Assembly: GCF_018336975.1 (NCBI RefSeq) | Contig: NZ_CP025572.1 | Span: 1 to 64,000, forward strand | DNA: 64,000 nucleotides | Reading direction: 5' to 3' | DNA from: Marinomonas sp. CT5 | GTDB lineage: Bacteria; Pseudomonadota; Gammaproteobacteria; Pseudomonadales; Marinomonadaceae | Shown here: positions 2,421 through 36,309 of the stretch, one piece after another | How the letters are laid out: each line of letters starts with the position of its first letter | How positions within the stretch are numbered: the first letter of the stretch is position 1 | Program-made: the position numbers and the translations under genes | Notes under the pieces: generated by a model | What the model was told of the DNA's origin: nothing | Seen by the model: only the letters and a program-made list of their open reading frames with translations | The model's database searches: none

Positions 2421-3152
2421 TTATATTGGATGCGTTACGCGACGGAGAAAATCTTGCGTTCTAGGATGAGTTGGCGAGGTAAGAATTTCGTTTGATGGGC
2501 CCTCTTCCAAAATCGATCCAGCATCTAAAAACAACACTCTATCAGCGACTTCGCGAGCAAAGTCGATTTCGTGTGTCACTATAATCATGGTCATGTGTTC
2601 TTCCGCTAAACTTCTCATAACCTGTAAGACTTCGCCGACCATTTCAGGGTCTAGGGCCGAGGTCGGTTCATCAAATAAAATAGCGTCAGGACGCATTGCT
2701 AGAGCACGTGCAATCGCAACGCGTTGCTGTTGCCCGCCAGATAATGATGACGGATAGAAATCCATTTTTTCTTTTAGCCCAACTCTTGTAAGTAAGGCTT
2801 TAGCTCGTTCTCGAACTTCTTTTGAGTCTTCGCGTAGTACATGGACGGGTCCCTCCATGACATTTTCTAATGCGGTGCGATTAGGAAACAAGTTAAAGCG
2901 TTGGAACACCATGGAGACTTTTGTTCGAATAGAATGAATTTGTTTCGAATTTGCATCAACGACGCTGTTATCAACAAGAATATCGCCCTTCTGATATTCC
3001 TCTAGACCATTTACACAGCGTAGCATCGTAGATTTTCCCGATCCCGAGGGACCAATTAAGCAAACCACTTCACCTTTTTTAATTTCTGCATTAATCCCTT
3101 TTAGTACTTCATTTCGGCCATAAGATTTATGCATATTAATAAATTGGATCAT
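2421..3152 (-). CDS. Polar amino-acid ABC transporter, ATP-binding subunit
   Basis: A 243-residue cytoplasmic ATPase that drives uptake through the adjacent permease. Visible motifs are Walker [10 protein letters not shown], signature [15 protein letters not shown], Walker [12 protein letters not shown] and switch His in VTHE, all as in GlnQ/HisP. The start is set at ATG 3152 ([12 protein letters not shown]) because it overlaps the permease stop in an ATGA junction, a typical translational-coupling arrangement. The frame is open upstream by 21 more codons, but those lie inside the permease gene and do not resemble the family. It belongs to the operon running from 4595 down to 1149. Confidence 0.92.
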
Positions 3153-3817
3153 TGAGACGCTCCCACTCGTTTTTCGACTCGGCCCATTACTAAATTGAGC
3201 GGAATTGTTAGACACAAATAAAGTAACGCCACTAGAGTAAATACGGTTAAGTTGTCAAAAGTTGTAGAAGATAGCATCTTGCCTTGCATCGTTAGTTCAG
3301 CAACAGAAATAACTGAAACTTGAGAAGAGTCTTTAAGCAACATCACTAGATTATTTGCATAAGGCGGAACGACGATTTTAAAGGCTTGAGGTAATACAAC
3401 GCGTCTCATCAATAAAGGTCGCTTCATACCCAGTGATTTACCCGCTTCAATCTGGCCTTTATCAACACCGTTGATTCCCGCTCGGAACGTTTCACCAATA
3501 TAACAAGAGTAAGTAATTGCTAGTCCAATTACGCCTGCCTGAAAGGCAGAAAGATCAATGCCTATTTCTGGCATTACAAAATAAAGATAAAACAAGACAA
3601 CCAGAATGGGGATGCCTCGGATAAACTCGACAAATACCTTTGTTGGCGTGGCCAGAATAGAGATCCCAGAGGTTCTCAGCAAGGCCCATAGTAATCCCAG
3701 AAAGGTAGCTAAAACTAAGGAAAGCAAAGTAACAGATACTGTTAGCCAAAGGCCGTTTGTCAGAATCGGTAAGTATTCCTGAGACCGTAAAATGAAATCA
3801 TACATAAACGAATACAC
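3149..3817 (-). CDS. Polar amino-acid ABC transporter, permease subunit (HisM/GlnP type)
   Basis: A 222-residue inner-membrane permease. About five hydrophobic segments are seen, and the EAA loop reads [22 protein letters not shown], which contacts the ATPase. The N-terminal signature [21 protein letters not shown] is typical of the His/Glu/Gln/Arg/opine permease family. Only one permease gene is present, so the transporter probably uses a homodimer. The stop overlaps the ATPase start by 4 nt, and the binding-protein gene lies 37 nt upstream. Confidence 0.92.
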
Positions 3818-3854
3818 CTAAACAAAAGGGGCGCACGGCCCCTGTGAACAAACT

Positions 3855-4595
3855 TTAAAGCCCGTATTTAGTAAAAATCGCATCTAACTTACCGTTTTTC
3901 TTCAATTTTTCGATGGCAATGTTTACTTTTTCCAGTAGTTTGGGGTTGCCCTTTGAGACCGCCAAGGCAACGTTATTGACTTTAATTGCCTTATAGTCTT
4001 TTACAAGTTTTACTCCTAGACGTGGATTTTTTGATACCTGAAATCCAATAACTGGCGCATCGCCTAAGCCCGCTTTAATACGGCCTAACTTAATGTCACG
4101 CATAATATCGGATAGAGAGTCATACAGCTTAATTTCACTAAAGCCTCCGTGTTTTTCTAGAAGAGTAGGGAAAACAGTTCCGATTTGAGCGCCGACTTTT
4201 TGTCCTTTCAAATCGTCTAATGATTTTGTCTCATCATCGTCAGCAGCCACAAAAAGGCCATCGCCATAGGAATAAACAATATCAGTGAAGTTCACGACTT
4301 TTTGGCGTTCTGCAGTGGCGAACATACCTGCGGAAATTAAATCAATCTTTCCCGTTTCAAGAGAAGGTATTAATGCGGAGAATGAGGTGATTTTGAATTG
4401 TGCTTCATCTCCCATAGAGGTAATGATTGCGTTAGCAAGGTCTACCATGGCTCCTGCAGGCTTTTGTGTTTTCATATCTAGATAAGTAAAAGGTATGCCT
4501 GTTGTTGTAATACCGACATCAATTGTGTCTGCTATAACAAGTGATGACATCGATAGTCCAAGAATTGCTGATAATATTAATTTTTTCATGCTCAT
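3855..4595 (-). CDS. Amino-acid ABC transporter, periplasmic substrate-binding protein
   Basis: A 246-residue family-3 solute-binding protein. Residues 1-22 are a Sec signal peptide (MSMKKLILSAILGLSMSSLVIA, first ~20 shown in part; cleavage near VIA-DT). The mature part begins with the IDVGITTTGIPFTYLD strand seen in this family. The start at 4595 follows AGGAAA with 6 nt spacing; a second Met two codons on is less well placed. It is first in the operon with permease, ATPase and PuuB-like oxidase and is driven by the promoter at 4668-4696. The ligand is unknown; a polyamine conjugate or amino acid fits the neighbours. Confidence 0.9.
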   Translation of the reverse strand: MSMKKLILSAILGLSMSSLVIADTIDVGITTTGIPFTYLDMKTQKPAGAMVDLANAIITSMGDEAQFKITSFSALIPSLETGKIDLISAGMFATAERQKVVNFTDIVYSYGDGLFVAADDDETKSLDDLKGQKVGAQIGTVFPTLLEKHGGFSEIKLYDSLSDIMRDIKLGRIKAGLGDAPVIGFQVSKNPRLGVKLVKDYKAIKVNNVALAVSKGNPKLLEKVNIAIEKLKKNGKLDAIFTKYGL

Positions 4596-32699: not shown

Positions 32700-33824
32700 T
32701 TAACTGGCTAAGTAGTTATGTCCTTGATTCAAGGACAAATAAATCTTGTTTCGCAACTCATTGGCTAGGCTGGTTGGGACACTCTTAGTTGGATGGCGTA
32801 AACTGATTCTTAATAGCAAATTAACTTGGGATGGCGTCATGCCTAGTCGTTCAACCGCGGACTTTGGCAGTTGATGATACTCGGTTCGCGACAATAACTT
32901 CAGCTCTTCGAGCCAATGGGCTTGTTCTCCCAAAGTGGTACGAACTTGATCGCCAATAATGTCCATATCTGTGTCTTGGTTCACCACTATCGAAATATCA
33001 CGATCCGCTTTGGGCTGTCGTGACACTGGGCGCCAAGGTGATAAATCGAGCATTTGTTGCTGAATGCGTGAATCTGGATCTCTCAGCAAACGAATATCAG
33101 GAAGGCCTTTACGTAACATCAATACTCTGTCTAAGCCTAAACCAATGGCGACACCCGTGTAATCTTTGCTTGGCCAACCATTTCTGTTTAACAGATCTGG
33201 ATCTATGTTGCCGCACTCACCCACTTCAATTAGGTTTTGTCCTTCAATAGCATCAAGTTGAACACCATTTATGGTGTAAGGGTGCGGTGATTTGGATTGT
33301 TGCACCACATGATTGGGCAATAGGGTTTTCATCAGTGCCGAAACTGACTCATTTAAAATCTCTATATCCTCGTCAGCTTGTGTTTTGGGCATGACAATCC
33401 AGATGTCTAATTGATGAGGTTCTGCGCAATGCCAGCGATCAATACAGTCACGACGGTAAACCAAACCGTGACTTATCATTCCTATCGAGTTCGGTCGTAG
33501 ACTTTGCCAACTGCTCAACCAGGTTGGCACTGCGCTGGACGTTTGAGTACGAAGCATCAAACTATCAGAAATATAGCGGCTGTAGCGAACGTCTCGCGAC
33601 GCTCCATCGGCAGGATAACCGAGCGCATCGTAGTTTTCGTAAACGGGCACAATAGGGTTGGCATTGATACGTTGCAGGTAACAGCACCATAAGGCAGAAA
33701 GCGCTGCTTCCGCTTCAGTGATGAGTTGTTGCATGGCATGAATGCCGTATTTTGGGTTGGTTAAATCACGCAAAGAAAGCGCGCTAAGTAATTGTTCGTG
33801 GGTAAGGTATGTGTTGGTAGACAT
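32700..33824 (-). CDS. Stand-alone PheS-like class II synthetase homolog with FDX-ACB-type domain
   Basis: A 374-residue protein related to the catalytic subunit of phenylalanyl-tRNA synthetase, but single-chain. Motif 2 is seen at about residues 119-142 (HGLVYRRDCIDRWHCAEPHQ, LDIW) and motif 3 at 225-247 (GVAIGLGLDRVLMLRKGLPD). Residues about 274-374 look like a ferredoxin-fold anticodon-binding domain, which is normally on PheT or on mitochondrial PheRS. The N-terminal coiled coil of PheS and any editing domain are absent. ATG 33824 has GGAG 7 nt upstream. The housekeeping pheST is not here, so this is probably a paralog with another job. I recall an uncharacterised family labelled PheS-related mystery ligase (SrmL) but cannot confirm membership. 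Confidence 0.75.
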   Translation of the reverse strand: MSTNTYLTHEQLLSALSLRDLTNPKYGIHAMQQLITEAEAALSALWCCYLQRINANPIVPVYENYDALGYPADGASRDVRYSRYISDSLMLRTQTSSAVPTWLSSWQSLRPNSIGMISHGLVYRRDCIDRWHCAEPHQLDIWIVMPKTQADEDIEILNESVSALMKTLLPNHVVQQSKSPHPYTINGVQLDAIEGQNLIEVGECGNIDPDLLNRNGWPSKDYTGVAIGLGLDRVLMLRKGLPDIRLLRDPDSRIQQQMLDLSPWRPVSRQPKADRDISIVVNQDTDMDIIGDQVRTTLGEQAHWLEELKLLSRTEYHQLPKSAVERLGMTPSQVNLLLRISLRHPTKSVPTSLANELRNKIYLSLNQGHNYLAS

Positions 33825-33874
33825 TATAAAGCTCCATAAATCCAAGATAAAAATTAGTGCAATGCTTTTGGATT

Positions 33875-33895
33875 CCTCCGAGTCGGGACTCGGAG
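33875..33895 (-). promoter_or_regulatory. GC-rich hairpin in the leader of the PheS-like gene
   Basis: On the minus strand CTCCGAGTC, CC, GACTCGGAG form a perfect 9-bp stem 51 nt before the start codon. A second copy of the left half, CCTCCGAGTCCC, lies upstream at 33952-33963 and could compete for the right half (10 bp, GACTCGGAGG). No T-run follows directly. Further on, AATCCAA and TTGGATT could pair next to the ribosome site. Confidence 0.5.
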
Positions 33896-33914: not shown

Positions 33915-34001
33915 TTATTTCAGAAAGAACAAAGCCGCCGGGTCCAGTTTAGGGACTCGGAGGCTGGTAAATCGTTGTGATAGTACAATAAGATGCGTCA
34001 T
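33915..34001 (-). CDS. Possible leader peptide, 28 codons
   Basis: ATG 34001 is preceded by AGGA at 8 nt spacing and opens a frame ending in TAA at 33917-33915. The peptide begins MTHLIVLSQRF and ends DPAALFFLK, with 3 Phe and 6 Leu of 28. It spans the upstream repeat copy (33952-33963) and stops 20 nt before the hairpin at 33895. The position and composition resemble amino-acid attenuation leaders such as that of E. coli pheST, but the case is only suggestive: it is short, and a chance frame is possible. Confidence 0.35.
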   Translation of the reverse strand: MTHLIVLSQRFTSLRVPKLDPAALFFLK

Positions 34002-34085: not shown

Positions 34086-34736
34086 CTACACAGCGTTCGG
34101 CGCAGTTGGTTCTGGGAAATCCTGACTCTGAATAGGGTCTTTTTGCAATTCCCCCCACTGTCTTTCTAACGGCATAACGCCCGCCCACACTGGCCAGTCG
34201 TTATCGGCTGGATCATCGATAGGTGGTTCTGCTCGGAATTTGACCGAGGCTTCGTCTATTTTGATACGCACGACTCCCGTCGCTTTGATCTCTTGCTCGT
34301 TGACGGGACGTAATGTTTCCCAGCGACCTGGGCTGACTTTATCGAGGAAAAGTTTGAATTGACGTACTTTTTCTTCTTTTTCTTCGATCAGTTCTGGTAC
34401 GCCAAATAAGGTCACGGAACGATAATTTACTGAATGGTGCATGGCCGAACGCGCCAAGACTAAGCCATCCAATAAACTGATGTTGATGCAGACTTTTTCC
34501 GGTTCGTCGATTGGCCCTTTAACATTGCGGGCTTTCGAATGAGCGTGCCAATAGAAGTAGTCGCCTTCACGCCAATGGCTGGTGGGGGTGACAAACACTT
34601 GCCCGTCTTTGGTTTGTCCGACATGACACATAAGCGCCGCATCAATAATGTTAAATGCTAGATCTTTGTCATAAGAGGCACGGTTTGGCCCGCGTTTTAC
34701 TTTACTTAATGTGGTTTCTTCTAGTGACTGGCTCAT
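34086..34736 (-). CDS. Pyridoxamine 5'-phosphate oxidase-like flavin-binding protein
   Basis: A 216-residue split-beta-barrel protein of the PPOX/NimA-like group that binds FMN or a related cofactor. Visible blocks are AFNIIDAALMCHVGQTKDGQ, VFVTPTSHWREGDYFYWHAH, the NVKGPIDEPEKVCINISLLD stretch and HHSVNYRSVTLFGVPELI, the pattern of the pyridoxamine oxidase family protein often paired with a MocR regulator. The ribosome site GGAGAG precedes ATG 34736. It is divergent from the MocR gene, so that regulator probably controls it. A detoxifying reductase role is possible; substrate unknown. Confidence 0.85.
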   Translation of the reverse strand: MSQSLEETTLSKVKRGPNRASYDKDLAFNIIDAALMCHVGQTKDGQVFVTPTSHWREGDYFYWHAHSKARNVKGPIDEPEKVCINISLLDGLVLARSAMHHSVNYRSVTLFGVPELIEEKEEKVRQFKLFLDKVSPGRWETLRPVNEQEIKATGVVRIKIDEASVKFRAEPPIDDPADNDWPVWAGVMPLERQWGELQKDPIQSQDFPEPTAPNAV

Positions 34737-34842: not shown

Positions 34843-36309
34843 ATGAAGCACGCGATCGCCAGTTTGCGCTTTTCTTTAGACGACGATGAACCCTATTACA
34901 AACAATTGATCGAGCAGATCCAGCAAGGCATTGTGTCTGGGGAGCTATCGGTTGGTGATAAGTTACCCTCCTCGCGTTTTTTAGCCAGTTCGTTGGGTGT
35001 TTCACGAAGTACGACCTCTCGGGCCTACGATCAATTAATCGCTGAAGGTATTTTAACCAGCGAAGAAAAGCGTGGTGTGTTTGTGGCGGCTTTGCCCATG
35101 GTTAGCCAGCGTTCAACGAGGCAATCTCATTCTTCCCACTTACCCATTAATACAGTGCCAGTAACACTAGCGTTCGATGCGGGGGCTGATGTGTCTGTCT
35201 TTCCCGCTAAGGAATGGGCGTCAAGTATGCGACGGAGTTGGCTCAATCCAGATTTAACTGTGCTGGAAGGTGGGTACGAAACAGGTTACCCAAATTTAAA
35301 AGTAGCGATAGTGGATTATTTGTACCGTGTTCGAGGTCTTGAGTGTTCCGCTGAGCAAATTATTGTCACGGCTGGAAGCCGTGACTCGTTGCTTTTATTA
35401 CAACATGCGATTACATCGTTGGGAGGTTTTCATGGGTCGTCAATGAAGTGGTGGTTTGAAGAGCCCACCTACCCGCCAATTCGCGAGACTATATCATCGT
35501 CTGCCAAATCGGGTGTGCTTTTGATAGACGAAGATGGGCCTTGTTTACCAGATAGCGAATCTGTTTTGAATGCCGCAATTTTAACCCCAAATCGGCAATA
35601 TCCTCTTGGCTTGAGTATAAGTGCGGCTCGACGTCAGCAATGGCTGCAAGCATTACAAAATGATTCGCTAAATTGGTGGTTAGTGGAAGACGATTATGAC
35701 AATGAGTTTGTCTATCAGGGGCGAAGTAATGTGCCTTTTATGCAAACAGCAAGCGTGCATGATCAAGCTCGAGATCGTGTCTTCTTTGTTGGAAGCTTTT
35801 CTAAAGTGCTGTTTCGAGGCTTACGGTTGGGCTTTATTGTCGCTCCAACGAAACATATTGCGGCATTACATAGAAGTCAGCGTGTGTTGGGTGCATCGGC
35901 TTCTTTACCTATACAACCTGCAGTAGCGAACTTTATGCTTGAAGGTCATTTTGATCGGCATGTCAATCGGATGCGTCGTCACTATAGACTCAAGCGAGAC
36001 CAACTCTTGCGACTTCTAGAGTGCCATTTAAAACCTTGGTTTGAGTGGAAGAAACCTCGTGGAGGGATGCATATATTAATAGAAATCAAAAACGACTTTC
36101 TTTCCATCGTGCAATCTGAGATGGCTTTAGATCAGTTAATAGCACAAGAGCTTGCTTGTAGTGGTGTGAAACTATCACCTTTGTCCAGACATTACGCTCA
36201 CGAGCGAGACCAATGTGGTTTTTTATTGGGGTTTAGTGGACCCAATGAAGAAACTATGGTGCATATTGTTGTCGCATTGGAACATTGGTGTATAGAAAAT
36301 TTGAGATAA
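34843..36309 (+). CDS. MocR/PdxR family regulator (GntR HTH fused to aminotransferase domain)
   Basis: A 488-residue PLP-binding regulator. Residues about 1-80 form a GntR winged helix (LPSSRFLASSLGVSRSTTSR then AYDQLIAEGIL). Residues about 115-488 are an aspartate-aminotransferase-fold domain with VTAGSRDSLLLL, the PNRQYPLG block, VEDDYDNEFVYQG and the PLP lysine in GSFSKVLFRGLRLGF. The start is ATG 34843, 7 nt after AGG; the open frame from 34762 runs through probable promoter sequence. TATAAC and GTTATA (34771-34776, 34799-34804) in the divergent gap could be its site. It probably senses PLP or an amino compound and controls the flavin-type gene beside it. Confidence 0.88.
   Translation: MKHAIASLRFSLDDDEPYYKQLIEQIQQGIVSGELSVGDKLPSSRFLASSLGVSRSTTSRAYDQLIAEGILTSEEKRGVFVAALPMVSQRSTRQSHSSHLPINTVPVTLAFDAGADVSVFPAKEWASSMRRSWLNPDLTVLEGGYETGYPNLKVAIVDYLYRVRGLECSAEQIIVTAGSRDSLLLLQHAITSLGGFHGSSMKWWFEEPTYPPIRETISSSAKSGVLLIDEDGPCLPDSESVLNAAILTPNRQYPLGLSISAARRQQWLQALQNDSLNWWLVEDDYDNEFVYQGRSNVPFMQTASVHDQARDRVFFVGSFSKVLFRGLRLGFIVAPTKHIAALHRSQRVLGASASLPIQPAVANFMLEGHFDRHVNRMRRHYRLKRDQLLRLLECHLKPWFEWKKPRGGMHILIEIKNDFLSIVQSEMALDQLIAQELACSGVKLSPLSRHYAHERDQCGFLLGFSGPNEETMVHIVVALEHWCIENLR

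Follow-up and report, generated by a model that had tools for sequence, protein, structure and literature searches.

SrmL: gene, domain architecture and active site

The 64,000-nucleotide stretch of the Marinomonas sp. CT5 genome analyzed here (contig NZ_CP025572.1, positions 1 to 64,000; hereafter the window) carries on its minus strand a gene, srmL, for a single-chain relative of phenylalanyl-tRNA synthetase (PheRS), preceded by a conserved leader (Table 1). The gene is the sole open reading frame (ORF) in its span: it extends over 374 codons from an ATG at 33824 to a stop at 32700-32702, and the plus strand of 32700-33824 has many stops; the ORF list opens it at a TTG, 21 bases upstream of this ATG. 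The protein is a member of the NF051887 family, named 'PheS-related mystery ligase SrmL' in NCBIfam (454.4 bits, E-value 2.5e-136, curated cut-off 300). The initial annotation, which gave no strand, had recognized a PheS-like class II synthetase that stands alone and carries an anticodon-binding domain of its own: both the ORF and this architecture are borne out. It had also spoken of an undescribed system: the family already has a name, which states no function, and one is proposed here.

The N-terminal part of SrmL is a PheRS-alpha catalytic core (PF01409, residues 27-257, 105 bits, E-value 4.4e-30). The C-terminal FDX-ACB (B8) domain is matched weakly in the window protein (PF03147, residues 268-362; 16.7 bits, cut-off 31.1, E-value 0.01); it is matched in 10 of 11 relatives (E-values up to 1; best 1.8e-9), and the predicted structure, a model that keeps the synthetase fold, is consistent with such a C-terminus. 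End to end, the chain thus consists of a catalytic core and an FDX-ACB domain. As the initial annotation had it, the PheS N-terminal region (there called the coiled coil) is missing in an alignment with the PheS of the same genome, the PheT body and editing domain are absent from the chain, and pheT is not among the ORFs neighboring srmL. A normal pheS (331 residues) and pheT (794 residues), named by eye and the former also via PF01409, lie side by side elsewhere in this genome, which is a single 4.76-Mb contig (C1:2622615-2626017). Hence srmL is an extra gene, and the alternative that it encodes the housekeeping enzyme of a genome lacking pheST falls away.

Two known architectures invite comparison. 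With the (alpha-beta)2 PheRS of bacteria, SrmL has in common the catalytic core motifs of PheS and the FDX-ACB domain with which PheT ends (loci L164 and L171 give C-terminal matches to pheT_bact); it differs in the missing regions listed above, and its score to TIGR00468 (pheS) is 85.1 bits, below the cut-off of 237.45. The single-chain human mitochondrial PheRS (FARS2; 3cmq, 3tup) is 24% identical to SrmL; it is organellar, whereas genes for SrmL occur in bacteria, plasmids and phages. In a 2010 review the mitochondrial enzyme is called the only known monomeric synthetase with a class II catalytic module (PMC3275996), and the passages on monomeric PheRS in a further article concern mitochondrial enzymes only (PMC9976931). 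Among the literature matches listed for SrmL or 'PheS-related' nothing relevant appears, which does not show that print is empty.

The active-site letters quoted in the initial annotation are present: VYRRD..D..H..EPHQLD and GLGLDRVLMLRKGLPD, in the regions that we take to be motif 2 and motif 3, respectively. The catalytic residues R124, H132, H137, Q138, E200, R233, D243 and R245 are identical in an alignment of eight SrmL proteins with the genome's own PheS.

Table 1. Features of the srmL locus (positions in the window)
Feature	Position	Strand	Basis
srmL coding sequence, 374 aa and stop	32700..33824	minus	ORF list; NF051887 454 bits (cut-off 300)
FDX-ACB anticodon-binding domain (residues 268-362)	32739..33023	minus	PF03147 profile; strand/helix order of structural model
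Class II PheRS-alpha catalytic core (residues 27-257)	33054..33746	minus	PF01409
Motif 3 region, residues 224-245 (G224, A226, G228, G230, R233, D243, R245 common with PheS)	33090..33155	minus	alignments
E203, replacing a PheS glycine (LGCG to GECG); nearly invariant in SrmL	33216..33218	minus	alignments
Pocket residues H181-P-Y183-T184, replacing F-P-F-T of PheS	33273..33284	minus	alignments
Motif 2 region, residues 120-142 (R124, D126, H132, H137, Q138 common with PheS; R125 invariant in SrmL)	33399..33467	minus	alignments
GGAG, the srmL ribosome-binding site; paired in predicted leader fold	33832..33835	minus	folding
Candidate attenuator hairpin 3:4, part of predicted fold masking the srmL ribosome-binding site	33876..33895	minus	folding
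Leader peptide ORF, MTHLIVLSQRFTSLRVPKLDPAALFFLK and stop	33915..34001	minus	kept across Marinomonas, synonymous and conservative changes
Candidate attenuator segment 2 (pairing partner of segment 1; may also pair with segment 3)	33933..33945	minus	predicted folds
Candidate attenuator segment 1	33953..33965	minus	predicted folds
Invariant codon pair CGA UUU (Arg-Phe), candidate for control codon	33969..33974	minus	leader comparison

The leader of srmL

The approximately 170 bp upstream of srmL are nearly unchanged in Marinomonas, even where the proteins are only 71% identical, and the fold predicted for the whole leader has a z-score of -3.52, with 0 of 200 shuffles equally stable. A short ORF containing the CGA UUU codons comes first; hairpin 1:2 follows, then the ORF ends, and after it lies hairpin 3:4, the 5' arm of which resembles segment 1 (6 to 10 unbroken bases in common). 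Like architectures precede srmL in Saccharospirillum, Azotobacter, Glutamicibacter and the genomes G176, G299 and G1114. Hairpins 1:2 and 3:4 are predicted in all eight leaders, 3:4 least clearly in Glutamicibacter, and a U-rich run follows hairpin 3:4 in Azotobacter, G176 and G1114. Of 131 upstream regions, 44 contain the hexamer CGATTT, with many mutual duplicates among them: 32 of the 44 have the leader architecture and the other 12, from Pseudomonas, have the hexamer without it. Judged from the sequence, the layout is that of a ribosome-mediated attenuator. The control codon would be that for either Phe or Arg; Phe is favored, as it fits the enzyme family and as Phe-rich leaders without this Arg-Phe pair are seen in two phages (see below).

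A precedent is offered by the pheM-pheST operon of Escherichia coli, where a leader peptide governs the PheRS genes by attenuation (PMC9291695). The likeness lies in a leader peptide ahead of a PheRS-type gene; in the present case, however, the gene is accessory, the bacterial leaders have the invariant CGA UUU and those of two phages are Phe-rich, and no Rfam family matches the window between 32300 and 34900 (E-values up to 1).

Distribution of srmL and its phage loci

With the family cut-off of NF051887 as the threshold for membership, srmL is present in 8 of 48 Marinomonas genomes, that of the window included, and in no others among the 94 relatives searched; the proteins nearest to the window SrmL are 86-90% identical. 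It is found in 3 of 369 genomes of the class sample (again counting the window genome), in 1 of 398 of the phylum sample, which is the window genome itself, in none of the 25 genomes of genus g315 and in 29 of 298 genomes of genus g314 (Pseudomonas-like, taken to be Pseudomonas_E). A pattern scan of public genomes, biased toward close relatives, gave 63 loci: 55 from Pseudomonas, six from Marinomonas and one each from Saccharospirillum and Paucimonas. Among 72,556 plasmid records three have matches (E-values up to 1e-30): a 43% identical copy in Azotobacter chroococcum, a 42% identical one in Glutamicibacter nicotianae and a partial match in Corynebacterium diphtheriae. Phages also carry the gene: a match in LR745206.1 (635 kb) covers 97% of the query, with 13 other phage records in that search matching the core only (E-values 2e-18 to 2e-7), and srmL is present on five more viral contigs of 181 to 578 kb. 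This sporadic presence in genomes, combined with the occurrence on plasmids and phages, identifies srmL as an accessory gene that has moved between hosts. A decayed srmL is seen in the Marinomonas genome G009 (L131:8437-8768, minus strand).

In a tree with five PheS proteins as the outgroup, drawn with a midpoint root, the leader-bearing SrmL proteins form one group (8 rows, support 94/94, just under the star of the tool). A long branch leads to a second group, made up of those of Pseudomonas and Paucimonas, next to which the 181-kb phage is placed (93/95), and the remaining phage proteins fall outside both. The deep branching order is unsure, 10 of the 28 inner branches being open.

The six phage loci were scanned for Phe-rich leaders (ATG starts, 8-40 codons, 350 nucleotides). 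Two have one, MNTNTTFNFFFSHKMV in LR745206 and MNMLNKNNFSFFMFDFFGTQARGAILLKE in L171, each followed by a terminator-like hairpin; their Phe density is reached by 1 and 4 of 300 shuffles, respectively. The terminator test is also positive at L169, a locus with no Phe-rich leader. Translation genes surround several of these copies: in L168 srmL (2959-4089) lies amid 12 tRNA genes, the nearest on either side being tRNA-Phe(GAA); in L176 tRNA-Phe and tRNA-Val genes end just upstream of srmL; in L170 srmL lies 8 bases beyond the end of a HisRS-like ORF (211 residues, 150 bits, under the hisS cut-off), a full seryl-tRNA synthetase gene (440 bits, over its cut-off) lies approximately 1.6 kb upstream and two tRNA-Phe genes lie approximately 8 kb away. 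By PF01409 no second strong PheS is found in the six phage records, two weak extras scoring 21.1 and 18.2 bits. Huge phages are described as carrying up to 15 synthetases (PMC7162821). The 508-kb viral contig represented by L170 and L183 (G1144) has large tRNA arrays with the seryl-tRNA synthetase gene beside tRNA-Ser genes, and a transfer-messenger RNA is predicted at L190:4004-4379 on the 181-kb srmL-bearing contig.

Proposed function of SrmL

Relatives of the window gene adjoin tRNA-Phe(GAA) genes or follow Phe-codon leaders with attenuator- or terminator-like structures; hence, charging of tRNA-Phe fits SrmL. We consider it probable that SrmL is a stand-by single-chain PheRS that loads ordinary tRNA-Phe. 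It would then be an accessory enzyme of mitochondrial layout working next to the housekeeping PheST: an amino acid, most probably phenylalanine, would be activated to its adenylate and transferred to ordinary tRNA-Phe. The peptide encoded by the 5' leader in the lineage of the window has its Phe codon immediately ahead of segment 1: when Phe-tRNA is scarce, as a consequence of PheRS inhibition or shortage of Phe, the ribosome would pause at this codon, allowing segment 2 to pair with segment 3, thereby blocking hairpin 3:4 and permitting expression of srmL, which could serve to rescue the cell from PheRS inhibition.

Several observations weigh against this proposal. On the side of the enzyme, the TIGR00469 (pheS_mito) score of 100.4 bits is below the curated cut-off of 258.35, and the Phe pocket is changed across the family: the F-P-F of bacterial and mitochondrial PheRS, including the human enzyme, is H181-P-Y183 in SrmL (Phe258 and Phe260 in Thermus numbering), and a glycine is replaced by Glu203. 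Cytosolic PheRS has Asn/Tyr at the first two pocket places with a compensating Phe438, according to the 2010 review (PMC3275996); a counterpart of this residue seems to be missing in SrmL (I207 by our alignment). On the side of the leader, the CGA codon is conserved as much as UUU, a leader of this kind is missing from the main Pseudomonas clade, and hairpin 3:4 of the window has no U-run, for which reason control there would be translational. The competing 2:3 pairing is not secure. When the arms are trimmed automatically, 353, 328, 419, 41, 36, 239, 76 and 18 of 500 shuffles are as good, so that the pairing passes the 5% level in only one of eight leaders; with a wider segment 3, chosen by eye after the folds had been viewed, 12, 18, 18, 0, 18, 3 and 14 of 300 shuffles are as good in seven leaders (G299, near-identical to G176, left out), and the two tests are to be weighed jointly. 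Furthermore, a degenerate copy of the Marinomonas leader, probably a relic, precedes a cellulase-like gene (identified by eye) in the srmL-less genome G019 (L163:1484-1590). Among the phages, four of the six loci are without a Phe-rich leader and, in the partial views available, three of the six have no tRNA-Phe in the 60 kb scanned around srmL.

Given the family-wide change of the pocket, the substrate may be other than Phe. Phe itself is likely, less surely so than the charging of tRNA-Phe. One could thus envisage SrmL charging tRNA-Phe or another tRNA with, for instance, an oxidized or substituted aromatic amino acid, for recoding or to feed a pathway, an idea in keeping with the conserved H181, Y183 and E203 and with a chain devoid of an editing domain. 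We regard this as unlikely: a gene induced by scarcity of Phe-tRNA ought to restore Phe-tRNA, and the adjoining tRNA-Phe genes bear the ordinary GAA anticodon. The initial annotation had proposed an aromatic or unusual amino acid, passed to an odd tRNA, a protein or a small molecule. The altered pocket agrees with the first part, for which we prefer ordinary Phe; the second is not favored, in view of the ordinary tRNA-Phe(GAA) neighbors and the Phe-codon leaders of relatives.

The c1 gene and a 33-residue peptide in the Pseudomonas clade

In 36 of the 63 public loci (fragments counted) a gene that we term c1 is divergent from srmL, with a gap of 391 to 486 bp in the 28 loci with a full-length c1. 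No Pfam or NCBIfam model matched the c1 proteins tested; they do match CgnE (6zsu, 4.5e-12) and 6zsv, listed as an uncharacterised protein (4.4e-23). CgnB and CgnE are described as peptide-binding proteins of the crocagin pathway (PMC10070186). As a further parallel to that pathway, a small ORF adjoins this CgnE homolog: it lies between c1 and srmL, encodes 33 residues and has an end like GPENFGWAPLAWAHTED (24 loci by a strict pattern and six more by a looser one, the latter applied to 33 loci). At L050:6641-7723 and 35 further loci lies c1, with the conserved peptide ORF just upstream, and the pair, a candidate outside the window, is possibly a minimal unit for a ribosomally synthesized and post-translationally modified peptide (RiPP) in Pseudomonas. 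Among the 298 genomes of g314, 29 carry srmL and 23 carry c1; the 14 that carry both have them side by side in divergent orientation without exception (Fisher p 1e-10, with no correction for relatedness). In the nine with c1 and no srmL, c1 scores 106 to 345 bits, and a similar peptide was absent, by a loose pattern, from the seven examined; of the 14 with both, 12 score at least 441 bits and two are partial.

EpmA/PoxA attaches a residue to EF-P. In a similar vein, SrmL could serve a small RiPP pathway as a ligase that modifies a peptide, adding an amino acid to the 33-residue peptide with the help of c1. The strict adjacency, the intervening peptide and the CgnE match of c1 all speak for this, and it was initially our favored explanation. 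It was demoted, and now appears improbable: srmL occurs without c1 in 15 of the 29 g314 genomes and in all eight srmL-bearing Marinomonas genomes (c1 is absent from all 48 searched); in L042, L064 and L072, where srmL is full-length, the adjacent c1 is down to a remnant (66, 81 and 20 residues matched, respectively); and the attenuator and phage contexts, in which c1 plays no part, point to tRNA-Phe.

The stand-by PheRS proposal can accommodate c1 in a tentative extension: SrmL might be a spare PheRS insensitive to an inhibitor, which in Pseudomonas would be made by c1 and the 33-residue peptide, with srmL conferring self-resistance; elsewhere it would give stand-alone protection under attenuator control, and huge phages would charge their own tRNA-Phe with it. 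The decay of c1 beside an intact srmL could then reflect a resistance gene outliving its lost partner. That SrmL is no synthetase at all, acting instead in resistance or regulation (e.g. antibiotic modification or tRNA binding only), is very improbable: its gene lies 482 bases downstream of the Cmx chloramphenicol exporter gene on the Glutamicibacter plasmid, and the partial match on that of C. diphtheriae is flanked by erm(X) and tet(65), but these are two plasmids only, such islands collect many genes, the Azotobacter plasmid stretch has no annotated resistance gene, and the catalytic residues and synthetase fold are retained.

Were SrmL to charge tRNA-Phe, the monomeric design would exist also in bacteria, plasmids and huge phages, with a bearing on the origin of the organellar enzyme. 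With the leader, the fold and the tRNA arrays of the phages, a family that has a name and no assigned function gains a specific testable one: the 'mystery ligase' of the databases would become a testable enzyme, its leader would report PheRS inhibition, and the c1/srmL pairing of Pseudomonas would indicate a natural PheRS inhibitor.

By eye, a motif like CTGTAG...TTCTGAAAA, possibly a promoter or operator, is seen approximately 100-150 nucleotides before the srmL start in the Pseudomonas clade (e.g. L054, L058), where it recurs with or without c1.

Genes adjoining srmL in Marinomonas

No operon partner is constant across the Marinomonas srmL loci, as far as crude ORF calling shows. Pyridoxamine-oxidase-like and MocR genes, or an AgcS symporter gene, adjoin srmL in many of them, though not in all. 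In the window, a pyridoxamine-oxidase-like gene (34086-34736) is divergent from that of a MocR/PdxR-type regulator (34846-36309; 341.9 bits, cut-off 320).
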